The notes under the pieces were generated by a model. The model worked only from the letters and a program-made list of their open reading frames with translations, was not told the DNA's origin and searched no databases. Below, in pieces: positions 1 through 15,063 of a stretch of DNA of 64,000 nt. Each line of letters begins with the position of its first letter. The first letter of the stretch is position 1. Origin of the DNA: Burkholderiales bacterium Ga0077547 (GTDB lineage: Bacteria > Pseudomonadota > Gammaproteobacteria > Burkholderiales > Burkholderiaceae_C). Made by a program: the position numbers and the translations under genes. The stretch is taken from assembly GCA_001464195.1 (NCBI GenBank), contig LNEY01000022.1:1-64000 (forward strand), in the 5' to 3' direction.

Positions 1-3000
1 CTGATGAGTCGATGGAGGACTACGCGCTGCGCTACACGCCGCGCAGCTTTCGCAAGTGGTCAGAAATGCGGGTCGCGAACACCGCCTTCGGTGCGGTGTC
101 GTTTCTGGCGCTGGAGGCCATAGGCGGCGCGATCGCACTCAATTACGGCTTCACCAACGCGCTGTGGGCGATCCTGACGGTGGGGCTGATCACGTTCCTG
201 ACCGGCCTGCCGATCAGCTACTACGCCGCCCGCTACGGCGTCGACATGGACCTGCTGACGCGTGGCGCCGGCTTCGGCTACCTGGGCTCGACGATCACCT
301 CGCTGATCTACGCCAGCTTCACCTTCATCTTCTTCGCGCTCGAGGCAGCCATCATGGCGCTGGCGCTGCAGATGTTCTTCGACATCCCGATCGCCTGGTG
401 CTATGTCATCAGCTCGCTGGTGATCATCCCGATGGTGGTGCGCGGCATCACGCTGATCTCCAAGCTGCAGATGTGGACGCAGCCGGTGTGGGGGGTGCTG
501 CTCCTGCTGCCGTATCTCGCCATCTACTGGAAGAACCCGCAGGCGTACTCGGACTTCATGGGCTTGAGCGGCCGCACCTCGGGCAGCAGCGACTTCGATC
601 CGCTCATGTTTGGTGCAGCGGCGACGGTGGCATTCTCCTTGGTGGTGCAGATCGGCGAGCAGGTCGACTTTTTGCGCTTCCTGCCCGAAAAGACCGCGGC
701 CAACCGCACCCGCTGGTGGACCGCGGTGCTGATGGCCGGGCCGGGCTGGATCATCCCGGGCATGCTGAAGATGCTCGGCGGCGCATTTCTCGCCTTCCTG
801 GTGTTGCAGCTTGAGTTGCCGGCCGCCAAGGCCATCGAGCCGACGCAGATGTACCTGGCGGCCTACAGTTATGTGTTCACCGACCCGGCCTGGGTGCTGG
901 CCGCCACGGTGATCTTCGTCGTGGTGTCGCAGGTCAAGATCAACCTGACCAACGCCTACGCGGGCTCGCTGGCGTGGTCGAACTTCTTCGCGCGCCTGAC
1001 GCACAGCCATCCTGGGCGCGTGGTTTGGCTGGTGTTCAACGTGCTGATCGCGGTGCTGTTGATGACGCTGGGCGTGTTCCAGGCGCTTGAAAAGGTGCTC
1101 GGGCTGTACAGCAATGTGGCCATCGCGTGGGTGGGTGCGCTGGTGGCCGATCTGGTGATCAACAAGCCGCTGGGCTGGAGTCCGAAGGGCATCGAGTTCA
1201 AGCGCGCTCATCTGTACGACATCAACCCGGTCGGCATCCTCTCGATGCTGCTGGCGGCGGCACTCGCGGTGGTGGCGTATTCCGGCACGCTGGGACCGCA
1301 GGCCCAGGCCTTCGCACCCTTCATTGCCCTGATCACCGCCTTGGTGCTGTCGCCGCTGCTCGCGTGGTGGACCCAAGGCCGTTACTACATCGCGCGTCAA
1401 CCCCAGGTGCTGGGCCAGCCCGGGCAGGTGCTCAAGTGCAGCGTCTGCGAGAACCGCTTCGAAGCCGAGGACATGGCGCATTGCCCGGCCTACAGCGCAC
1501 CCATCTGCTCCTTGTGCTGCACGCTGGAATCGCGTTGCCACGACCGCTGCAAGAGCGGCTCCCGCGCGGCCGAGCAGGCCGAAGGAATGCTCACTTCGTT
1601 ACTGCCGGCCTCGCTGTCGAACCGGGTGAACTTTCGCGTCGGTCATTACCTCGTGGTCGCGCTCTCGCTGTGCACCTTGCTGGCGGTGGTGATGGGGATG
1701 GTCTACACGCAGGAGGTGAGTCCCGAGCTGTCAAGTGCCACGCAGTTGCTGCTGAAGTCAGCCTTCGTCAAGGTGTTCGCGATGCTGCTGCTGATCGTGG
1801 CCGTGTGCAGCTGGTGGGTGGTGCTGGGCAGCGAAAGCCGGCGCCTGGCGCAGGACGAATCGAACCGCCAGAACCAGCTGCTGCAGCGCGAGATCGAGGC
1901 TCACCAGCGTACCGACGCCGCCCTGCAGGCCGCGCGCGATGTGGCTGAATCGGCCAACCAGGCCAAGACCCGTTATGTGGCCGGCATGACGCACGAACTG
2001 CGCACACCGCTCAACAGCATCCTCGGCTATTCGCAGATCCTGTTGAAGGACGAGGCCCTGGCAACCACGCCGCGCGAGGCGGTGCAGACCATCCAGCGCA
2101 GCGGCGAGCATCTGCTGGCCCTGATCGACGGCCTGCTCGACCTGGCGCGCATCGAGGCCGGTCGCTTGCAACTGGAGCCCATGCCGCTGCACCTGCCGGA
2201 CTTTCTCGACGAGCTGGTGCGCATGGTCAGCCCGCAGGCCGAAGCCAAGGGCCTGGCCTTCGTCCACACGCGCGCCGGCCACCTGCCCACCTGGGTCCGG
2301 GCCGACGCGAAGCGCTTGCGGCAGATCCTGATCAACCTGCTGGCCAATGCGGTGCGATTCACCGACACCGGCACGGTCACGCTGCATGTCGACTCGCGCA
2401 AGCAGGTGGTGCGCTTCGACGTGATCGACACCGGCGTGGGTGTGCTGCCGCAGGACCGCGAGCGCATCTTCCTGCCGTTCGAGCGGGGCGCCGCCGGGCG
2501 TCGGCAGGGTGGCGAGCCCGGCACCGGCCTGGGGCTGACGATCACCGGCTTGCTGACCTCGTTGATGGGCGGCGAGCTCACCCTGGCCAGTACCTCGGGC
2601 CAGGGCAGCACCTTCAGTGTGCGGATCTACCTGACCGAAACCGCCGACCCCGGCCCGCTGCGCGAGATGCCACGGCAGATCGTGGGCTACTTCGGCGAGC
2701 GCCGCACCTTGCTGGTGGTCGATGACCAGCCAGTGCAGCGGCAGATGCTGGCGGGCATGCTGATCCCGCTTGGTTTCGAGGTGCGTGAAGCCGCCAGTGG
2801 CGCCGAGTGCCTGGCCAGCCTGCACGAGACGGTGCCCGATGCCATCCTGCTCGACATCACGATGGACGACATGGACGGCTGGCAGGCAGCGACCCGGCTG
2901 CGCACGGCGGGCTACACCGATGTGCCGATCGTCATGGTGTCGGCCAATGTGTTCGAGAACCAGGTGCAGCGGCTGCGCGCAGCGCAGTGCCAGGCGTTCG

Positions 3001-3329
3001 TGGCCAAGCCGGTGCTTGAGTCGGAGCTGATCGGCGCGCTGCACCGAACGCTGGGCCTGGAGTGGCGCGTGGCTGGTGTACTGAGCCTGCCGACCGACGA
3101 GATCGACCCCGCCTCGGCCGGGCGCCTGGAGTTGCCCGACCGGGTGCGCACCGACCTGTTGCGCCTGGCGCGCGTCGGCCATGTGCGAGGGCTGCAGACC
3201 GCGCTGGATGGCATCGCCGAAGCGGACCCGTCTCTCGCGGCGTCGTGTACCCGCCTGCGAGGCCTGGTCAGCCGCTTCGAGATGGATCGCCTGCAGACCC
3301 TGTTGATGGACGAAGCTGAACTGAACTGA
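1..3329 (+). CDS. NCS1-type permease fused to hybrid sensor histidine kinase/response regulator (5' end probably outside window)
   Basis: Probable membrane transporter-sensor. Numbering from the ATG at 12: residues 1-470 are a polytopic permease of the nucleobase-cation-symport-1 type (cytosine, purine, allantoin family). Residues 476-513 form a Cys-rich segment, CX2C-X11-C-X7-CX2CC-X5-C-X3-C, that probably binds metal. Two more membrane segments follow (about 540-615), then a short coiled coil, HisKA with phospho-acceptor H661 in THELRTPLNS, an ATPase with DTGVG and GTGLGLTI (about 837), and a receiver with D948 in DAILLDITMDD. The last 80 residues are unassigned. The frame is open upstream of the ATG (Asp-Glu-Ser codons precede it), so the true start is probably outside the window. 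It lies 2 bp before a LuxR-type regulator gene and just upstream of urease, which suggests sensing of a urea- or purine-related nitrogen compound. The ligand is inference. Confidence 0.88.
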   Translation, partial: DESMEDYALRYTPRSFRKWSEMRVANTAFGAVSFLALEAIGGAIALNYGFTNALWAILTVGLITFLTGLPISYYAARYGVDMDLLTRGAGFGYLGSTITSLIYASFTFIFFALEAAIMALALQMFFDIPIAWCYVISSLVIIPMVVRGITLISKLQMWTQPVWGVLLLLPYLAIYWKNPQAYSDFMGLSGRTSGSSDFDPLMFGAAATVAFSLVVQIGEQVDFLRFLPEKTAANRTRWWTAVLMAGPGWIIPGMLKMLGGAFLAFLVLQLELPAAKAIEPTQMYLAAYSYVFTDPAWVLAATVIFVVVSQVKINLTNAYAGSLAWSNFFARLTHSHPGRVVWLVFNVLIAVLLMTLGVFQALEKVLGLYSNVAIAWVGALVADLVINKPLGWSPKGIEFKRAHLYDINPVGILSMLLAAALAVVAYSGTLGPQAQAFAPFIALITALVLSPLLAWWTQGRYYIARQPQVLGQPGQVLKCSVCENRFEAEDMAHCPAYSAPICSLCCTLESRCHDRCKSGSRAAEQAEGMLTSLLPASLSNRVNFRVGHYLVVALSLCTLLAVVMGMVYTQEVSPELSSATQLLLKSAFVKVFAMLLLIVAVCSWWVVLGSESRRLAQDESNRQNQLLQREIEAHQRTDAALQAARDVAESANQAKTRYVAGMTHELRTPLNSILGYSQILLKDEALATTPREAVQTIQRSGEHLLALIDGLLDLARIEAGRLQLEPMPLHLPDFLDELVRMVSPQAEAKGLAFVHTRAGHLPTWVRADAKRLRQILINLLANAVRFTDTGTVTLHVDSRKQVVRFDVIDTGVGVLPQDRERIFLPFERGAAGRRQGGEPGTGLGLTITGLLTSLMGGELTLASTSGQGSTFSVRIYLTETADPGPLREMPRQIVGYFGERRTLLVVDDQPVQRQMLAGMLIPLGFEVREAASGAECLASLHETVPDAILLDITMDDMDGWQAATRLRTAGYTDVPIVMVSANVFENQVQRLRAAQCQAFVAKPVLESELIGALHRTLGLEWRVAGVLSLPTDEIDPASAGRLELPDRVRTDLLRLARVGHVRGLQTALDGIAEADPSLAASCTRLRGLVSRFEMDRLQTLLMDEAELN

Positions 3330-3331
3330 CC

Positions 3332-4264
3332 ATGTCACCAGACCTTGCCACACCCACCTTGTCATCGCAACCGTCCGCCGATCGCCCGGTGGTCCTGGTC
3401 GTCGACGATGCCCCCAGCAGCCTCGGCGTGCTGTGCGACACGCTGGAAAGCGCCGGCTACACCGTGCTGGTCGCAGGCGATGGCGAAACGGCCTTGCAGC
3501 GGCTGGAACTGGTGACCCCCGACGCGATCCTGCTCGATGGACTGATGCCCGGGCTGTCCGGCTTCGACACCTGTCGCCGCATCAAGGAGACGCCAGCCTG
3601 GGCGCACGTGCCAGTGATCTTCATGACCGGGCTGTCGGAAACCTCGAACGTGGTCGAGGGTTTTGCGTGTGGTGGTGTGGACTACGTCGTCAAGCCGCTG
3701 CGCGCACAGGAAGTACTGGCACGGCTGCACACCCATGCACGCAACGCCCGCATCACGCGGATGGCGCGCGACGCGGTCGACGTGGCTGGTCTGGGCGTGG
3801 TGTTCGTCGATGCCCTGGGGCGCATCGCCTGGCGCTCACCGCAAGCGGCAGTGTGGCTGCAGGCGCTGCAAGACGGCAGCGGCGACGGCAAGTTGCCGAT
3901 CGCATTGCGGGCGGCGCTCGATGTCGCCCTGGAGGCCGACAGCACGCAGGTCGTGCACACACGCACCACCCCACCGCTCTCGGTGCGCAACATGGGCACC
4001 GCCACCCTGGGCGAGACGATGCTGCTGCTGGAGCTGCAACGCGAAGGTACGCTCGCGGCATCGCGGCTCAGCCACGCCGCACTGACACCGCGCGAGACCG
4101 AGGTGCTGTCCTGGCTGGCCAAGGGCAAGACCAACCGCGACATCGCCGACATCCTCGGCATGAGCCCGCGCACCGTGAACAAGCACCTCGAGCATGTGTT
4201 CGAGAAGCTCGGCGTCGAGACCCGCGCTGCCGCGGCAGCCCTGGCCAGCGGCTGCCTGCCCTGA
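3332..4264 (+). CDS. LuxR/NarL-type two-component response regulator
   Basis: Cytoplasmic DNA-binding response regulator of 310 residues and the likely partner of the preceding hybrid kinase, whose stop codon is 2 bp upstream. The N-terminal receiver has the acidic pocket (VVDDAP), the phospho-acceptor D69 in DAILLDGLMPG and the conserved lysine in VKPL. A linker of about 100 residues resembles a degenerate PAS-like region. The C-terminal LuxR helix-turn-helix begins at about residue 247 (LTPRETEVLSWLAKGKTNRDI) and ends in the usual TVNKHLEHVFEKL helix. Urease genes start 65 bp downstream on the same strand, so control of urease is a reasonable inference, although no binding site could be recognised. 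Confidence 0.9.
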   Translation: MSPDLATPTLSSQPSADRPVVLVVDDAPSSLGVLCDTLESAGYTVLVAGDGETALQRLELVTPDAILLDGLMPGLSGFDTCRRIKETPAWAHVPVIFMTGLSETSNVVEGFACGGVDYVVKPLRAQEVLARLHTHARNARITRMARDAVDVAGLGVVFVDALGRIAWRSPQAAVWLQALQDGSGDGKLPIALRAALDVALEADSTQVVHTRTTPPLSVRNMGTATLGETMLLLELQREGTLAASRLSHAALTPRETEVLSWLAKGKTNRDIADILGMSPRTVNKHLEHVFEKLGVETRAAAAALASGCLP

Positions 4265-4328: not shown

Positions 4329-4631
4329 ATGGAACTGACCCCCCGCGAAAAGGACAAGCTGCTGATCTTCACCGCCGCGCTGCTGGCCGAACGCCGGCGC
4401 GCGCGGGGGCTCAAGTTGAACTACCCCGAAGCGGTGGCACTGATCAGCGCCGCCATCATGGAAGGCGCACGCGATGGCAAGACCGTCGCTGAGCTGATGA
4501 GTGACGGCAAGCTGGTGCTCACCCGGGCCGATGTGATGGACGGCGTGGCCGAACTGATCCCCGAGATCCAGATGGAAGCGACCTTTCCCGACGGCACCAA
4601 GCTGGTGACGGTGCACCAGCCGATCACTTGA
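4329..4631 (+). CDS. ureA: Urease subunit gamma
   Basis: Small structural subunit of the nickel enzyme urease, which hydrolyses urea to ammonia and carbamate in the cytoplasm. The 100-residue product has the family length and start ([20 protein letters not shown]) and keeps the [10 protein letters not shown] and LMSDGK segments typical of UreA. It is the first structural gene of the cluster. The next gene is not ureB directly but a 54-codon His-rich ORF. The weak ribosome-binding site does not argue for another start. Confidence 0.97.
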
Positions 4632-4654: not shown

Positions 4655-4816
4655 ATGAAAAACTTCGCTCTGCTGCTCTTGACGCCCTCACTGGCGTGGG
4701 CACACACCGGTCATGGCCTGGGGGATGGCGGGCACTGGCACCCGTCTGACACCTGGGGTTATCTGGCCCTGGCGGCCATGGTGGCGATTGCCGTGTGGGG
4801 GAGGCGCAAGAAGTGA
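4655..4816 (+). CDS. Small His-rich secreted/membrane peptide between ureA and ureB
   Basis: A 53-residue ORF starting at ATG 4655, six bases after a good AAGGAG ribosome-binding site; the ORF-track start at 4628 is a TTG and is less likely. The product has a signal-peptide-like N-terminus ([16 protein letters not shown]), a His/Gly-rich stretch ([14 protein letters not shown]) that would face the periplasm, one membrane segment and a WGRRKK tail. Its TGA overlaps the GTG start of ureB, so the two are translationally coupled. The AHTGHG opening resembles the mature N-terminus of HupE/UreJ nickel permeases, but the rest of that fold is absent. A role in metal handling for urease is inference. 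Confidence 0.72.
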
Positions 4817-5118
4817 TCCCCGGCGAACTGCTCACCGATGGCCCGGACCACCCGATCAACGTCGGGCGCCGCACGATCACCACCGTGGTCGAAAACAGCG
4901 GCGACCGGCCGATCCAGGTCGGCTCGCATTACCACTTCGCCGAGACCAACGGCGCGCTGGTGTTCGATCGCGCAGCGGCACGCGGCATGCGGCTGAACAT
5001 CGCCTCGGGCACCGCCGTGCGCTTCGAGCCGGGCCAGCAACGCACCGTCGAGCTGGTCGATTTCGCCGGAGACCGTCAGGTCCACGGCTTCCGAGCGCAG
5101 GTTCAGGGCGCGCTCTGA
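4813..5118 (+). CDS. ureB: Urease subunit beta
   Basis: Second structural subunit of urease, 101 residues, as usual for separate UreB chains. I place the start at GTG 4813 because it gives the canonical MIPGEL N-terminus, follows a GGGGGAGG ribosome-binding site and overlaps the stop of the preceding small ORF (GTGA). The ORF-track start at 4795 would add six residues not found in the family. The [11 protein letters not shown] and [12 protein letters not shown] segments are diagnostic. Confidence 0.96.
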
Positions 5119-5152: not shown

Positions 5153-6880
<1,728 letters not shown>

Positions 6881-7269: not shown

Positions 7270-8364
7270 TCAGCTCGCCGGAAACGCGATCAGGTGGTCC
7301 ATGTCGAGGCGGATGCCAATGGCTTCGCCGATGCGGTGGTTGTGGTGCGAGGGCACCATCGACAGCACGCGGGTACCGCTGGCGAGTTCGAGGGTGTACA
7401 GGATCTGCGCGCCTCTGAACGCCTTGTGCCGCACGATGCCCTGTGCGGGGCTGGTGTCGTCGTGCACCACGTCGTCGGGGCGCAGCAGCACATCGATCTG
7501 GCTGCCGATGGGGCACGGACTGCCGTCGGGCGCATAACGGATGGTCTCAGGTGCCGACACCGCGCCGATCTCGATGGCCAGTTGCCGCTCGGCCACGACC
7601 GTGCCACGCACAAAGACACCCTGACCAATGAAGTCGGCGACGAAACGGCTGGCCGGGCGGTGGTACAGGTTGTAGGCGGTGTCGATCTGCTGGATGCGGC
7701 CGTCGGCCATCACCGCCACCTCGTCGGCCATCGCGAAGGCCTCGTTCTGGTCGTGGGTGACAAACACCGCGGTGGTGTTCGTGGCCTTCAGGATCTCGCG
7801 CACTTCGGCGGCAAGCTGCTCGCGCAGATCCACGTCGAGGTTCGAAAACGGCTCATCCATCAGCAACAGACGCGGCTGCGGCGCCAGCGCGCGCGCCAGT
7901 GCTACGCGTTGCTGCTGCCCACCAGACAACTCGTGCGGGTAGCGCTGTGCGTGTGACTTCAAGCCGACCATGTCGAGCAGACGCTCCACGCGAGCTTTGT
8001 CGTCAGCGCTGCCGCGCGTCCCGAAAGCCACATTGCGCTCGATGGTCAGGTGCGGGAACAGCGCGTAGTCCTGAAACACCATGCCGATGCGGCGCTGCTC
8101 CGGCGGCAGATGCCGGCCCGGCCCGCTAACCACCTCGCCCGCGATGCGGATCTCGCCGCCGGCCAGGGGCTCGAAGCCGCCAATGCAGCGCAGCACCGTG
8201 GTCTTGCCGCAGCCCGAGGGGCCGAGCAGACAACAGATGCTCCCGGTGGCGAGCGTCAGATTCAGTCCATCGACCGTGGCACGCGCCCCATAGGCATGAC
8301 GCACGCCGTGGAGGCTCAGGACAGGGACAGGAGTCGGGGTGGTCATCGATGGGGCCGGTGGCAT
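7270..8364 (-). CDS. fbpC: Iron(III) ABC transporter ATP-binding protein
   Basis: ATPase of an FbpABC/PotA-like importer, 364 residues (358 if the internal ATG at MTTPTP is used). It shows Walker A GPSGCGKTT, signature LSGGQQQR, Walker B LLLMDEPFSNLD, the switch histidine in VFVTHDQNEAF, and a C-terminal regulatory TOBE-like extension of about 120 residues. It is divergent from the permease gene, with 82 bp between the start codons. The iron assignment rests on the neighbouring FbpA and permease; a sulfate or polyamine role would be less consistent. Confidence 0.88.
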   Translation of the reverse strand: MPPAPSMTTPTPVPVLSLHGVRHAYGARATVDGLNLTLATGSICCLLGPSGCGKTTVLRCIGGFEPLAGGEIRIAGEVVSGPGRHLPPEQRRIGMVFQDYALFPHLTIERNVAFGTRGSADDKARVERLLDMVGLKSHAQRYPHELSGGQQQRVALARALAPQPRLLLMDEPFSNLDVDLREQLAAEVREILKATNTTAVFVTHDQNEAFAMADEVAVMADGRIQQIDTAYNLYHRPASRFVADFIGQGVFVRGTVVAERQLAIEIGAVSAPETIRYAPDGSPCPIGSQIDVLLRPDDVVHDDTSPAQGIVRHKAFRGAQILYTLELASGTRVLSMVPSHHNHRIGEAIGIRLDMDHLIAFPAS

Positions 8365-8446
8365 GGAGGCGCGGCGCCTGCCTCATGGGTCGTACACTGC
8401 CTGCGAATCAATCGCGTTCAGGACGCGTCGCGATGATAGCCCCCGC

Positions 8447-10135
8447 ATGACCGCCGCCCTCGCCTCCCCCCCGCCTCCGCCTTCCGCCACCGTGAGCCTG
8501 CCAGCTCGCCGTCAGATCGGCTGGCTGAGCCTGGCGGCCGCGGTGGTGGCGCTGTTCATCGCGCTGCCGATCCTGTCGGTGGCGACGAACGTGTTTTCGC
8601 CAGGCACTGGCGACACCTGGGCGCACCTCGCGTCGACGGTGCTGCCGGAGTACATCACCACCACGCTGTGGCTGTGTGTCGGTGTCGGCAGTCTGGCCAC
8701 GCTCGTCGGTGTCGGCGCGGCCTGGCTCGTCACGCATTTCGATTTCCCGCTGCGCCGCAGCTTCGAATGGGCGCTCGTGCTGCCGCTGGCGATGCCGGCC
8801 TACGTGATGGCCTACGCCTACACCGATCTGCTGCAGTTCGCGGGCCCGCTGCAGAGCTGGCTGCGCGCGACGATGGGCTGGACGCGTGCCGATTACAGCT
8901 TCCCCGACGTGCGCACGCTGGGCGGCGCGGTGGTGATGTTCGCCTTCGTGCTGTACCCGTATGTGTTCATGCTGGCGCGCTCGGCCTTCATGGAGCGCGG
9001 TGTCGCGGTCATGGAGGCGGGCCGCTCGCTGGGGCTGTCGCCGTGGCAAAGCTTTGCGCGCGTGTCGCTGCCGATGGCCCGGCCCGCGGTGGCAGCCGGC
9101 GTGGCGCTGGTGTTGATGGAAACGCTGGCCGACTACGGCACGGTGTCCTACTTTGCGGTGCAGACCTTCACCACCGGCATCTACCGCGCCTGGTTCTCAC
9201 TGGGCGACCGGGTGGCCGCCGCACAGTTGGCGATGTGCCTGCTGGGCTTCGTCGTGCTGCTGCTGGCACTGGAGCGTCAGTCGCGCGGCACCGCCCGCTT
9301 CCACGGCAGCGGGCTGCGGCGCCAGCCGACCCGCGGCGCGCCGCTGACCGGCCTGCGCGCTGCGCTGGCGGTCGCCCTGTGTGCGCTGCCGATCGTCATC
9401 GGTTTCCTGCTGCCCGCGGGTGTGCTGCTGCAGATGGCCGTGACCGAGGGCGACGCGCAGTTCGGTGCCCGCTTCTGGACGCTGGCCGGCAACAGCATCA
9501 TGGTGTCCGGCCTGACCGCGCTGCTCGCGGTGGCGCTCGCGCTGCTGGTGGCCTACGCCAAAAGGCTGGACCCTCGGCCGTTGACCCGCTCAGCGCACTG
9601 GGCAGTCGGCCTCGGCTACGCGCTGCCGGGGTCGGTGATCGCCGTCGGCGTGCTGATCCCGATGGCGCGACTGGACAACGCGTTGGCGCAGTGGTTGCAG
9701 ACCAGCTTCGGGTGGCAGACGGGACTGCTGTTCACCGGCACGGTTGCCGCGCTGGTGTTCGCCTGTCTGGTTCGCTTCATGACCGCCGCCCTGCAGACGG
9801 TCGACTCGGCGCTGTACCGCGTCACCCCGCACATGGACGACGCCGCCCGCAGCCTGGGCCTGTCACCCGCCCGCACGCTGCAGCGCGTCCATCTGCCGCT
9901 GCTGCGGCGTGGGCTGCTGACCGCCGGGCTGCTGGTCTTCATCGACGTGATGAAGGAATTGCCCGCCACGCTGGTGATGCGCCCGTTCAACTTCGACACG
10001 CTGGCGACCCAGGCCTACACGCTGGCATCGGACGAGCGGCTGGCCGAGGCGTCGACAGCCACCATCGCCATCGTGGCCGTGGGCTTGTTGCCGCTGATCG
10101 TGCTGTGCCGCCAGATCGCGAACGAACGGCGATAG
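8447..10135 (+). CDS. fbpB: Iron(III) ABC transporter permease
   Basis: Inner-membrane permease of 562 residues built as a tandem duplication of two six-helix halves, as in FbpB/SfuB. Each half ends in an EAA-type coupling loop: EAGRSLGLSPWQSFARVSLP in the first and DDAARSLGLSPARTLQRVHLP in the second. I start at ATG 8447 rather than the track start at 8339, because the extra 36 residues run into the fbpC promoter side and lack hydrophobicity. It is convergent with fbpA, whose stop is 37 bp after the fbpB stop. Confidence 0.9.
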   Translation: MTAALASPPPPPSATVSLPARRQIGWLSLAAAVVALFIALPILSVATNVFSPGTGDTWAHLASTVLPEYITTTLWLCVGVGSLATLVGVGAAWLVTHFDFPLRRSFEWALVLPLAMPAYVMAYAYTDLLQFAGPLQSWLRATMGWTRADYSFPDVRTLGGAVVMFAFVLYPYVFMLARSAFMERGVAVMEAGRSLGLSPWQSFARVSLPMARPAVAAGVALVLMETLADYGTVSYFAVQTFTTGIYRAWFSLGDRVAAAQLAMCLLGFVVLLLALERQSRGTARFHGSGLRRQPTRGAPLTGLRAALAVALCALPIVIGFLLPAGVLLQMAVTEGDAQFGARFWTLAGNSIMVSGLTALLAVALALLVAYAKRLDPRPLTRSAHWAVGLGYALPGSVIAVGVLIPMARLDNALAQWLQTSFGWQTGLLFTGTVAALVFACLVRFMTAALQTVDSALYRVTPHMDDAARSLGLSPARTLQRVHLPLLRRGLLTAGLLVFIDVMKELPATLVMRPFNFDTLATQAYTLASDERLAEASTATIAIVAVGLLPLIVLCRQIANERR

Positions 10136-10174
10136 CCGCAACCGAGCGGACGCGCTCGGCGCGCCGAGCCTACA

Positions 10175-11212
10175 TCAGCGCCAGCCGGCGCGGTCGTAAA
10201 TGCGCTGAGCCTGCGCGGCGCTGGCGGCCAATTGGCCGATCGGCAGCGCGTCCGGCTTGAACGGGCCCAGTGCGTCGAGCGCAGGGTTCTTCACCGGCGC
10301 GCTCTTGACGACGGGCCATTCGTTGTTGCCATCGGCAAAGTAGACCTGCGCCGAGTCGCTGGCGAGGTATTCGAGAAACTGCCGCGCGGCGGCCGCGTTC
10401 GGTGCGTGCTTGGTGATGCCCGCACCCGAGACATTGATGTGCGCGCCCCAGGTCTTCTGGTTGGGCCAGACGATGCCCAGGGCCTGCACCACCTGCTGGT
10501 CTTCCGGCTTGGTCGAACGCATCAGGCGAGCGAGGTAATAACTGTTCGAAATCGCCACACCGCATTCGCCCGCGGCCACGGCCTTCAACTGGTCGGTGTC
10601 GCCACCCTTGGGCGTACGGGCGAAGTTCGCGACCAGGCCACGCGCCCAGGCCTCGGTCTTCGCCTCACCCTCGTGAGACAGCACGGCGGCACCCAGCGAC
10701 AGGTTGTAGGGGTGCGCGCCCGAGCGGACGCAGATCTGGTTTTTCAATCGCGGCAGCGCGAGGTCTTCATAGGTCTGTACCCACTCAGGGTTGACCGTGG
10801 CCTTGGCATAGACGATCACCCGTGCGCGCGTCGAGAACGCGGCCCAGTTCGGCGTGCGCAGTGCCGCAGGAATGCGCGCCTCGATCACCGACGACTTCAG
10901 CGGCTGGAACAGCCCTGCCTTGTCGGCGATCTCCAGCCGCGCGGCGTCGACAGTGATCAGCAGATCAGCCGGGCTGCTGGCGCCCTCGTTCTTGAGGCGC
11001 TCAAGCAGTTCCTCTTCCTTGCCATCGAGCCGGTTGATCTTGATGCCGGTCTGCTTGGTGAAGTTGGCATACAGCGCCTCATCGGTCTGATAGTGGCGCG
11101 CCGAGTAGATGTTGAGTTCGCCCTGCGCGTGCGCGAGCGAGGCACCCAACAAGGCAGACAGCGCACCAGCAGCGGCGATGCAGGCACCAAACATGGAGGG
11201 CAGACGGATCAT
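10175..11212 (-). CDS. fbpA: Iron(III)-binding periplasmic protein
   Basis: Periplasmic substrate-binding protein of 345 residues with a cleavable signal peptide (LLGASLAHA followed by QGELNIYSAR). The sequence fits class-C ferric-binding proteins: NIYSARHY at the start of the mature chain and the double tyrosine of NSYYLARL, which supplies phenolate iron ligands in this family. The gene is on the minus strand, divergent from ureE, with a Fur-box-like sequence 60-80 bp upstream of its start. Delivery to the FbpB/FbpC membrane complex is inferred from family and neighbourhood. Confidence 0.92.
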   Translation of the reverse strand: MIRLPSMFGACIAAAGALSALLGASLAHAQGELNIYSARHYQTDEALYANFTKQTGIKINRLDGKEEELLERLKNEGASSPADLLITVDAARLEIADKAGLFQPLKSSVIEARIPAALRTPNWAAFSTRARVIVYAKATVNPEWVQTYEDLALPRLKNQICVRSGAHPYNLSLGAAVLSHEGEAKTEAWARGLVANFARTPKGGDTDQLKAVAAGECGVAISNSYYLARLMRSTKPEDQQVVQALGIVWPNQKTWGAHINVSGAGITKHAPNAAAARQFLEYLASDSAQVYFADGNNEWPVVKSAPVKNPALDALGPFKPDALPIGQLAASAAQAQRIYDRAGWR

Positions 11213-11268
11213 GGACAGGCCTTGGTATGTCGGTCGTGGGTCGTGAGACTTGGAAAGTCAGGCAGAAC

Positions 11269-11293
11269 TGTATACGAAACCATTCTCATTAAC
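11269..11293 (-). promoter_or_regulatory. Fur-box-like operator with candidate -10 for fbpA
   Basis: On the minus strand the sequence reads GTTAATGAGAATGGTTTCGTATACA. AATGAGAATGGTTTC matches much of the Fur consensus AATGATAATCATTATC, and TATACA directly after it could be a -10 element, so Fur binding would block the fbpA promoter. The region is locally AT-rich in a GC-rich surrounding. It also lies in the shared upstream region of ureE. Confidence 0.55.
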
Positions 11294-11429
11294 ATTCCGT
11301 ATCTCCGCACAGCGGCCGGTGGCTTCGGCGCAGCGCCACTGGCCAAGATCCAGTGGCGTCGCTCTCGGCACTCGTGCCAGACTCGCGGCTGTATCAACTG
11401 CGACCGCTGCGCCGCTGGCGCCCACCGAC

Positions 11430-12107
11430 ATGTCCACCCTGCTGACCATCAACAAGCTCATCACCCAGGGGCGCGGACTGAGCCGCGTGCTGCTCGCCCG
11501 CGCCGCCACTGTCTCGCTCGACTGGGACGTGCGCCAGAAAAGCCGCTTCGATGCCACCGACTCGCAAGGCCGCGCGCTGGGCGTGTTCCTGCCGCGTGGT
11601 GCGGTGGTGCGCGGTGGCGATGTGCTGGTCGCCGAAGACGGCTCGCTGATCGCGGTTCAGGCCGCGGCGCAGCCGGTGCTGGTGGTCACGACCTGCAAAG
11701 AGCACGGATCGGCTTTCGACCTGGTGCGCGCGGCCTATCACCTGGGCAACCGCCACGTGCCGCTGGAGTTGAAGCCCGACCACCTGAAGCTCGAACCCGA
11801 CCATGTGCTGGCCGACCTGCTGCGCCAGATGCACCTGACCGTGACCGATGCACAGGCGCCGTTCGAGCCGGAAAGCGGCGCGTATGCGCCGGGCGCGACG
11901 GCCGGTGGGCACGACCATGGCCACAGCCAAACGCACGATCATGCGCATGACCACGGCCAAGCGCATGGGCATACGCACGGCCCGGGCTGCGGTCATGACC
12001 ACAGTCACGACCACGCGCCTGCGGCCCACGCCGCACCGAAGACCATCCCGATCCAGGGCGCTGCCGCGCCCCACGTCCACGGCCCGGGTTGCAAGCACGA
12101 CCACTGA
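11430..12107 (+). CDS. ureE: Urease accessory protein UreE (nickel chaperone)
   Basis: Nickel metallochaperone for urease assembly, 225 residues. The ATG at 11430 gives the family N-terminus ([11 protein letters not shown]); the track start at 11250 runs through the fbpA promoter. The peptide-binding and metal-binding domains occupy about residues 1-150 and include [18 protein letters not shown]. The last 75 residues are very His-rich (about twenty His), as expected for a nickel-storing tail. The stop overlaps the ureF start (TGATG). Confidence 0.96.
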
Positions 12108-12877
12108 TGAGCGCGCTGCGGGCGCGTCTCGGCGCGCGGTCACTTCAGCGCCGAACGCATCGGCGGCCGGTGGCCCAGGCGCCGAACCTGACGCCCGCCT
12201 CGCTGCTGCAGCTGATCTGGCTGGCTTCGCCCGCGTTGCCGGTGGGCGGGTTCAGCTACTCCGAGGTGCTGGAAGCCGCAGTGAACGCCGGACTGACCAC
12301 GACCGAGCCCGACACCAGCCGCTGGCTGCTGGATCAGTTGCACCTGGGTTTGGCGCGCAGCGACCTGGCGCTGGTGGCGCGTGCCCATGGCGCCTGGCAG
12401 CGCGGCGATGTGCCAGAGGCGGCGGCCCTCAACACCTGGGTGCTGACCACGCGCGAAAGCCACGAGCTGCGCCAGCAGACCGAGCAGATGGGCCGCTCGC
12501 TGGTCGAGTGGATGAAGAACCGGCCGCTCGACGCACGCCACGCCGAGCCGCTGCAGGCGCTGGCCGCGCTGCGCCCGGCGCCGACCTGGCCCGTGGCCTT
12601 CGCGCTCGCCGCGTGGCAGACCGGCGCGCCTTGCCGCGACACGCTGCTGTGCTTCGCGTTCGGCTGGGCCGAGAACATGGTGCAGGCGGCGCTGAAATCG
12701 GTGCCGCTGGGCCAGCTGGCCGGGCAGCGCCTGCTGAGCGCGCTGGCCGCCGAGATCCCCGACGCCGTCGAGGCCGCGATGCGGCTTGGCGACGCCGAAC
12801 GGCAGGTGTGCACACCGATGCTGGCCATCTTGTCGGCGCAGCACGAAACCCAGTACTCGCGGCTGTTCAGGTCCTGA
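12107..12877 (+). CDS. ureF: Urease accessory protein UreF
   Basis: Assembly factor of the UreDFG activation complex, 256 residues. The start at 12107 overlaps the ureE stop by one base. Characteristic segments are [19 protein letters not shown] near the N-terminus, [15 protein letters not shown] and [22 protein letters not shown]. The first 35 residues are Arg-rich and variable. It is followed 43 bp later by ureG. No ureD gene, which encodes the third member of the complex, is visible in the window. Confidence 0.95.
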
Positions 12878-14503: not shown

Positions 14504-14758
14504 TCAGTAGTGATATCGCAGCTGCCCGATCTGCAGCGCGGCGCCTTCGACCCGGTAGACCATCCGGTGCTCGTCGGTGATCCTGCGAGACCAGAACCCG
14601 GCGAGCGCATGTTTCAACGGTTCTGGCTTCCCCACACCAGAGAAGGGATCACGCTTCACTTCCTGGATCAGCTTGTTGATGCGCTCAACCATCTTGCGAT
14701 CCTGCTTCTGCCAATACAGGTAGTCGTCCCAAGCCTCATCCGAGAAGACCAGCTTCAC
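14504..14758 (-). CDS. yoeB: YoeB-family mRNA interferase toxin
   Basis: Toxin of a type II toxin-antitoxin pair, 84 residues, the size of E. coli YoeB. It belongs to the RelE fold and cleaves mRNA at the ribosome. The family pattern is clear: WDDYLYWQ at the start, KPEPLKHALAGFWSRRITDEHRMVYR in the centre with the catalytic glutamate and arginine, and the C-terminal RYHY carrying the catalytic histidine and tyrosine. The start overlaps the antitoxin stop by four bases, so the two are translationally coupled. Confidence 0.93.
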   Translation of the reverse strand: MKLVFSDEAWDDYLYWQKQDRKMVERINKLIQEVKRDPFSGVGKPEPLKHALAGFWSRRITDEHRMVYRVEGAALQIGQLRYHY

Positions 14759-15006
14759 TCGGCCAACTCGCGAACCTCGCCCCTGCCTTCCACAAGCTGG
14801 GTGACCGCAGCAAGCAGCCGCTTGGCGTTCGCTGGGCTCCGAAGCAGGTAGGCTGTTTCTTCCAGGGCCTTGAAGTCATCGAGCGACACCATGACCACCG
14901 ACTGTTCGCCATTGCGGGTGATGATGATCGGCTCATGGTCCTCGCAGACCCTGTCCATGGTCTTGGCCAGGTTCGCTCGGGCAGCACTGTAGGTGATTGC
15001 GTCCAT
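14755..15006 (-). CDS. yefM: YefM-family antitoxin
   Basis: Antitoxin of 83 residues with a Phd/YefM DNA-binding N-terminal domain (MDAITYSAARANLAKTMDRV, then PIIITRNGEQSVVMVSLDDFKALEET) and a C-terminal tail that would wrap YoeB. I start at ATG 15006, seven bases after AAGGAGCC; the track start at 15051 reads through the operator. It is transcribed before yoeB and should repress its own promoter, where TGTACG repeats are present. Confidence 0.93.
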   Translation of the reverse strand: MDAITYSAARANLAKTMDRVCEDHEPIIITRNGEQSVVMVSLDDFKALEETAYLLRSPANAKRLLAAVTQLVEGRGEVRELAE

Positions 15007-15018
15007 GGGTGGCTCCTT

Positions 15019-15040
15019 TGTACGTTTTATTGTACGTACA
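15019..15040 (-). promoter_or_regulatory. Palindromic operator/promoter of yefM-yoeB
   Basis: The plus strand reads TGTACGTTTTATTGTACGTACA. It contains TGTACG twice, 12 bp apart, and the second copy lies in the perfect palindrome TGTACGTACA. The E. coli yefM-yoeB operator is built from palindromes with a TGTACA core, so this is a likely YefM binding site. On the minus strand TACAAT within it could be a -10 element. Confidence 0.6.
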
Positions 15041-15063
15041 TGACCATACAAATGCCGTGTCCT

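Follow-up and report, generated by a model that had tools for sequence, protein, structure and literature searches.

The first 64,000 nucleotides of contig C22 (LNEY01000022.1) of Burkholderiales bacterium Ga0077547, hereafter the window, begin with a gene whose product joins a permease-like domain, an eight-cysteine module, two additional membrane helices and a hybrid histidine kinase in one polypeptide. The genes of a response regulator and of urease follow (Table 1). The reading frame of the fusion is open to contig base 1 and, from the ATG at position 12, encodes 1105 amino acids. Relatives carry about 20 more conserved N-terminal residues, for example 'ATQKIFRIRRDYNAWVADESMEDYALRYTP' in L032, a locus near-identical to that of the window, and these extra residues (e.g. 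'ATQKIFRIRRDYNAWVADES') precede 'MEDYALRYTP'. The gene is therefore truncated at its 5' end by the assembly. A preliminary description, made from the sequence alone, had reported one continuous open reading frame; the frame is real, but with its 5' end cut by the contig the gene is not complete.

Pfam gives HisKA, HATPase_c and Response_reg domains for the fusion protein, and H661 and D948 had been assigned correctly in the preliminary description; an Hpt domain was not found by Pfam. The two extra membrane segments described there agree with helices 541-567 and 575-639, which follow the cysteine module in the AlphaFold2 (AF2) model. Coordinates and Pfam also confirm a LuxR-type regulator and then ureA: the regulator gene begins 2 bp past the kinase stop codon, and its product combines a receiver with a GerE helix-turn-helix (HTH), the NarL/FixJ-type architecture. 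In the same Pfam search UreA, UreB and UreC were recognised, while the permease part stayed unmatched. A complete HisKA/HATPase kinase is thus covalently joined to a transporter-fold domain, as seen with Pfam, with Foldseek and in 79 full-length relatives.

Table 1. Features of the fusion locus and of the adjoining urease genes (positions in the window).
Feature	Position	Strand	Basis or remark
Permease-kinase fusion gene (transceptor)	3..3329	+	5' end cut by contig start; compared with homologues, the ATG at 12 is internal
NCS1-like permease domain, residues 1-455, LeuT fold	12..1376	+	AF2, Foldseek, profile-profile comparison, PF02133-positive homologue
Eight-cysteine module, residues 476-513	1437..1550	+	C-x2-C-x11-C-x7-C-x2-CC-x5-C-x3-C; resembles RING/treble clef, with probably two sites for Zn
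Pair of extra membrane helices (residues ~541-600) ahead of the signalling coiled coil	1632..1811	+	AF2 model and model of residues 456-640
HisKA dimerisation/phosphoacceptor domain, residues 651-717, H661	1962..2162	+	Pfam
HATPase_c catalytic domain, residues 765-874	2304..2633	+	Pfam
C-terminal receiver domain (Response_reg), residues 901-1010, D948	2712..3041	+	Pfam
Cognate response regulator: receiver (residues 21-132) and NarL/LuxR-type GerE HTH (residues 250-305)	3332..4264	+	Pfam
ureA, urease gamma	4329..4631	+	Pfam; 64 bp after the response regulator gene
ureB, urease beta	4795..5118	+	Pfam
ureC, urease alpha	5153..6880	+	Pfam
ureE	11250..12107	+	Open reading frame as given; its actual start is probably more internal
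Candidate operator sequence for the cognate regulator: TACGTCANNYRACGTA			

The identity of the permease domain required structural and profile evidence. Residues 1-470 were recognised by neither Pfam nor NCBIfam, PF02133 matched neither the window protein nor any of 38 relatives above its gathering score, and neither the window permease nor a profile of the 38 sequences gave a meaningful match when searched against PDB sequences; the window's own genome contains no PF02133 protein. The AF2 model (predicted local distance difference test score, pLDDT, 76; predicted template modelling score, pTM, 0.75) returned CodB and Mhp1 as the top five Foldseek matches in the PDB with E-values from 3e-9 to 1.4e-7, and other LeuT-fold families ranked after them. 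Profile-profile comparison with hhalign against seven PF02133 proteins yielded 98.7% probability over 399 columns; pooling of several NCS1 proteins was required for this, the match to CodB as a single sequence being weak (20%). Five SSS proteins reached 3.9% (E 0.011), and an SSS/SLC5 identity of the transporter domain, as in SLC5-STAC kinases of the CbrA/CrbS type, was rejected. A kinase-free homologue in a Klebsiella urease operon is 44% identical over 518 amino acids, the first cysteine motif (CxxC...CSLC) included, and passes PF02133 with 37.7 bits against a cut-off of 23.5. Since fold, profile comparison and the PF02133-positive homologue concur, the domain is, on sequence and model evidence, an outlying NCS1 clade. 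The NCS1 assignment of the preliminary description therefore stands by these three lines, although the window protein is too divergent for PF02133, and the lack of a Pfam match for residues 1-470 is overturned by the profile and fold evidence.

The substrate site deviates from that of classical NCS1 proteins. Compared with the site residues of CodB (PMC9379551), the alignments place F107 at the position of the TM3 Trp (CodB W108) and L210 at that of the TM6 aromatic (CodB F204), so that the aromatic clamp of TM3 Trp and TM6 Phe/Trp for a base is not present. The Thr/Ser pair of the Na2 site in TM8 is not kept either, one of its two positions being the invariant Lys K309, with the limitation that hhalign and MAFFT disagree by one residue on the register of TM8. 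A Lys in the Na2 site is also found in CbrA (PMC13022988). Across the 79 full-length relatives the polar transmembrane motifs are conserved as strongly as the cysteines, QxKINxTN occurring in all 79, and TFIFFALE, QIGEQxD and QxKINxTN are common to kinase fusions and kinase-free homologues. With F107, L210 and K309 in place of the NCS1 Trp, aromatic and Na2-site residue, the pocket would in our view suit a small, non-aromatic ligand and lack the customary Na+ site.

A genome scan gave 80 loci with kinase relatives, 51 in clade A and 29 in clade B; in the tree the window protein falls in clade A. Here urtA is divergent from the kinase gene in 47 of 47 loci with enough flank and fmdA is found in 40 of 40 with longer flank, while fmdB and amiE often come next in the urt-fmdA cluster. 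The identities of UrtA, UrtB and the formamidase FmdA were confirmed by profiles. Among 201 genomes of the window's family, 41 carry a clade-A kinase and 39 a clade-A FmdA; all 39 also have the clade-A kinase, usually 6-8 kb apart. The kinase lacks a clade-A FmdA only in the window's genome, where the contig ends, and in one other genome. In six further genomes FmdA and the kinase are both of a more distant kind and lie 4-5 kb apart. The Fisher value for this co-occurrence takes no account of relatedness and is not to be taken as a probability. The conserved partner of the window's orthologue group is the divergent urtABCDE-fmdA(-fmdB-amiE) cluster and not urease, contrary to the earlier expectation: urease adjoins clade A only in the window's genus, its near relatives and one other locus (L080). 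The window's own urt-fmdA cluster is cut off by the contig end. The association with urea and amide nitrogen genes as such is very strong, urt/fmdA linkage being found in every clade-A locus with sufficient flank.

Among the clade-B paralogues, those of L104, L110 and L141-L146 are divergent from urease genes, and those of L082, L083, L087 and L096 adjoin canonical urt genes. On pSymA of S. meliloti, three small genes separate the kinase from a divergent urtABCDE. A clade-B paralogue with a regulator, no urease being nearby, is also present in the genome of the window, on contig 23. Clustering placed a response regulator in 69 loci; the marker search missed it in 16 clade-A loci, where the alignments were probably below the length cut-off. 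Homologues are present in 342 Klebsiella plasmid records and in 6 of 5,426 E. coli genomes; on viral contigs no relative was found. In one genome (G050, locus L147, 8655-9800) a transposase-like open reading frame breaks the kinase gene past permease residue ~384, whereby the permease is split from the kinase beside an intact urt-fmdA-amiE cluster.

These neighbourhoods bear on the nature of the ligand. As a sensor of one of the classical substrates of NCS1 proteins (a purine, cytosine, allantoin or hydantoin) that is broken down to urea, the permease might induce urea handling in advance; its fold and profile kinship with CodB/Mhp1 would fit, as would public annotations that call kinase-free homologues allantoin or cytosine permease. 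However, no purine, pyrimidine or allantoin genes were recognised among the recurrent neighbours of the 80 loci, the partner genes act on urea and short-chain amides, and the aromatic residues of the CodB site are replaced as described above, which makes this explanation unlikely. Since conserved purine or allantoin genes and the stacking aromatics are missing, urea or a short-chain amide is the likelier ligand. Of the previously suggested transceptor of purine/allantoin permease type for a urea-yielding compound, the transceptor idea and the nitrogen context are retained and the purine or allantoin part is given up.

When words were counted in the DNA between urtA and the kinase of 28 clade-A loci, ATACGTCA appeared in 24 of them, the largest shuffled count being 7. 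A 16-bp palindrome (7-2-7) of the NarL/FixJ type, TACGTCA-NN-YRACGTA, occurs in all 28 regions, with single substitutions in two loci. The pattern TACGTCAN4ACGTA is found in 42 of the 201 family genomes (36 of 41 with clade A, 6 of 160 others), and all six genomes of the latter group are without the YR centre; the palindrome is almost confined to genomes carrying a clade-A kinase. Its distance upstream of kinase codon 1 is 137-783 bp, mostly 137-311 bp, in 34 of the 39 clade-A genomes that were tabulated, and in L032 it lies 195 bp before the M1 codon. Second sites precede fmdA in Pseudomonas and are found around amiE in L049 and L099. In L124, from a Klebsiella plasmid, the palindrome is located at 12813 between urtA and the kinase, and on pSymA (L123, 10230) a variant precedes urtA. 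A sigma-54 promoter pattern was essentially absent from the urtA-kinase intergenic DNA. The palindrome was not found in Rhodocyclales loci, and neither these nor the urease-facing clade-B loci share another word clearly above shuffles. With its GerE domain and its gene paired with that of the kinase, the regulator is predicted as the natural candidate to bind the palindrome.

Further hints on the ligand come from homologues without a kinase. In Klebsiella the permease closes a ureDABCEFG-permease operon on a chromosomal-type segment with rpsU-dnaG-rpoD; this gene, annotated cytosine permease (L150, 6989-8596), belongs to the same permease clade and is likely a misannotated urea/amide permease. 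Acinetobacter ursingii shows the arrangement permease-ureEFGJ-ureDABC, and in Moraxella and Tsukamurella the permease adjoins fmdA. It lies head-to-head with the kinase gene in A. baumannii, and in Methylovirgula after the kinase-regulator pair and near fmdA, no urt genes adjoining the kinase. For the Arthrobacter and Streptomyces homologues no urease or fmdA neighbour was seen. Most of the kinase-free homologues sit in urease operons or beside fmdA, which suggests urea and short-chain amides as the clade's substrates. In Mycobacterium smegmatis the 'cytosine permease' msmeg_3402 and the adjacent formamidase msmeg_3403 both appear among genes listed as induced under nitrogen starvation (PMC4222082); the two probably correspond to the permease-fmdA pair of Tsukamurella (L153). 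Short-chain amides are linked to NCS1 a second time, and separately, in L115 (206-3870), where an amiE-like and an amiF-like amidase of the nitrilase family flank a more classical PF02133 permease.

The pairing of kinase-free permeases with the kinase in Acinetobacter and Methylovirgula, together with the divergent Urt genes of clade A, could also mean that the permease domain reports the activity of a partner, UrtABCDE or a kinase-free permease, in the manner of trigger-type sensors and without binding the inducer itself. We consider this rather improbable: no kinase-free paralogues were seen beside clade-A loci, in Methylovirgula urt genes do not adjoin the kinase, and the motifs of the pocket region are invariant.

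The eight cysteines (476, 479, 491, 499, 502, 503, 509 and 513) are invariant in 38 aligned relatives and their spacing pattern is kept in 79 of 79 full-length relatives, so the cluster, found at the positions given in the preliminary description, is not due to chance. Klebsiella, Acinetobacter and Moraxella permeases that lack a kinase retain just four of them, C476, C479, C499 and C502; C491, C503, C509 and C513 are jointly missing. All eight occur in the intactly aligned kinase fusions and in one kinase-free permease (Methylovirgula), while in the permeases of Arthrobacter and Tsukamurella a remnant of the domain is left that has lost the cysteine set. This retention or loss in sets of four suggests two separate four-cysteine metal sites, of which the second would go chiefly with the kinase form. 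A model of residues 456-640 shows a hairpin-plus-helix arrangement for which Foldseek lists RING domains first, not significantly (E 0.23, prob 0.97), and Prok-RING_1 matches below threshold only. Zinc binding by the module is plausible, and the metal-site-like character noted earlier is in line with the four-cysteine sets and the weak RING hints. Urease requires nickel, and control of urease by a metal would be conceivable if the module were the real sensor, of a metal or of redox state, and the permease a passive membrane anchor. The invariance of the eight cysteines and the zinc/RING-like fold hints agree with such a role. We nevertheless find it unlikely, since the module is also present on kinase-free permeases (in its four-cysteine form, the set being lost in Arthrobacter and Tsukamurella) and is not kinase-specific, the polar motifs of the permease are equally conserved, and the main partners FmdA and Urt are not nickel genes.

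Taken together, we favour a transceptor that responds to urea or short-chain amides and, through the cognate regulator, activates the urt-fmd-ami genes, with a probability of roughly two thirds (0.66); a regulatory role is well supported. In the mechanism that we infer, the NCS1-fold permease would bind a small molecule of the urea type, be it urea itself, formamide or a different short-chain amide, and a ligand-driven conformational change, with or without transport, would pass via the cysteine module, the transmembrane hairpin and the coiled coil to alter autophosphorylation of H661. Phosphate would then reach the regulator directly or via D948, which may act as relay or phosphate sink, and the regulator would bind TACGTCA-NN-YRACGTA, switch on the divergent urtABCDE-fmdA-fmdB(-amiE) cluster and also activate its own kinase operon. 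Several points weigh against this interpretation. The palindrome was found nowhere in the window or its own genome, where the contig ends before it, and with none near the window's urease, control of the adjacent urease is uncertain. Five clade-A genomes, the window's included, are without the exact palindrome, it was not found in clade-B loci beside urease, and its pairing with the regulator is assigned by association. Ligand or transport data for any family member were not found in the literature searched, and the neighbourhood separates neither urea from formamide or acetamide nor binding from transport. A more far-reaching version, to which we give slightly less than an even chance, would be an NCS1-derived urea/amide permease wired via a binuclear zinc module to a hybrid kinase, as a widespread and apparently undescribed family, whose kinase-free sisters in the urease operons of Klebsiella and Acinetobacter would form a family of bacterial urea/amide uptake proteins so far unrecognised.

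In the window's genus, the urease genes after the kinase-regulator pair are perhaps on the same transcript. Read-through is possible because the 64-bp gap between the regulator gene and ureA has no terminator-like site on the + strand. In L048 (13261-17436), from a relative of the same genus, other genes lie between regulator and urease genes, so that the linkage of kinase, regulator and urease is not fixed even within the genus. The urease operon of the window is split between ureC and ureE by an iron-type ABC transporter set (ATPase, permease and periplasmic binding protein; 7270-11212). A small gene pair at 14504-15051 resembles, judged by eye, a YoeB/YefM-type toxin-antitoxin module.

To our knowledge few transporter-kinase fusions have been characterised (SLC5 in CbrA/CrbS, Amt5). 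The fusion described here would add another transporter family as kinase input, with a predicted cognate operator and regulon, and would open both urea/amide sensing and the coupling of transporter to kinase to tests in common soil bacteria. It also suggests that 'cytosine or allantoin permease' proteins of urease operons are urea/amide permeases. A description of an NCS1-kinase fusion or of an NCS1 urea/amide permease was not found in the literature searched, subscription papers lying outside the search. The kinase and its regulator are candidates for the control of urtABCDE-fmdA clusters; the sole published candidate found so far was FmdB. It is the published putative regulator of the Methylophilus fmdCABDEF amide/urea system, a cluster induced by formamide and urea in which the only regulator mentioned is a putative positive one inside the cluster (PMC10781810). 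In Pseudomonas, urtABCDE-fmdA-fmdB-amiE has been proposed for formamide uptake (PMC13209695). For the 'UTS' urea-transport locus of Klebsiella CG307 (UrtABC/AmiF), proposed to be relevant to urinary infection, no kinase is mentioned (PMC13060141). The Klebsiella plasmid locus L124, with urtABCDE and a formamidase adjoining a kinase of the same family, looks like the same locus, which would give it a candidate regulator as well.

Among permeases, one close known counterpart is the 'cytosine/allantoin permease' of the Klebsiella urease operon, which shows the 44% identity, CxxC...CSLC and the same transmembrane motifs, and differs in having no kinase and four rather than eight cysteines; a characterised substrate was not found for it in the literature searched. 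CodB and Mhp1 are alike in fold and in profile similarity, whereas the window protein has no PF02133 match, an altered aromatic clamp, K309 and a C-terminal cysteine module with kinase. Known transporter-kinase fusions comprise SLC5 in CbrA (PMC13022988, PMC7096432) and CrbS (PMC5436829) and Amt (PMC5764959). In the anammox ammonium transporter-histidine kinase Ks-Amt5, the fold of a nitrogen-source transporter likewise serves as kinase input (PMC5764959), but the Amt fold is unrelated to LeuT/NCS1. CbrA of Pseudomonas, an SLC5-STAC-histidine kinase, also combines an N-terminal LeuT-fold transporter, a cytoplasmic linker and a histidine kinase, with transport and signalling in one polypeptide and a function in nitrogen/carbon nutrient sensing (PMC13022988, PMC7096432). 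In contrast to its SLC5 transporter, four-helix STAC linker and CbrB regulator, the window protein exhibits an NCS1-like permease, an eight-cysteine module with an extra transmembrane pair, a hybrid kinase with receiver and a regulator of the NarL/LuxR type.

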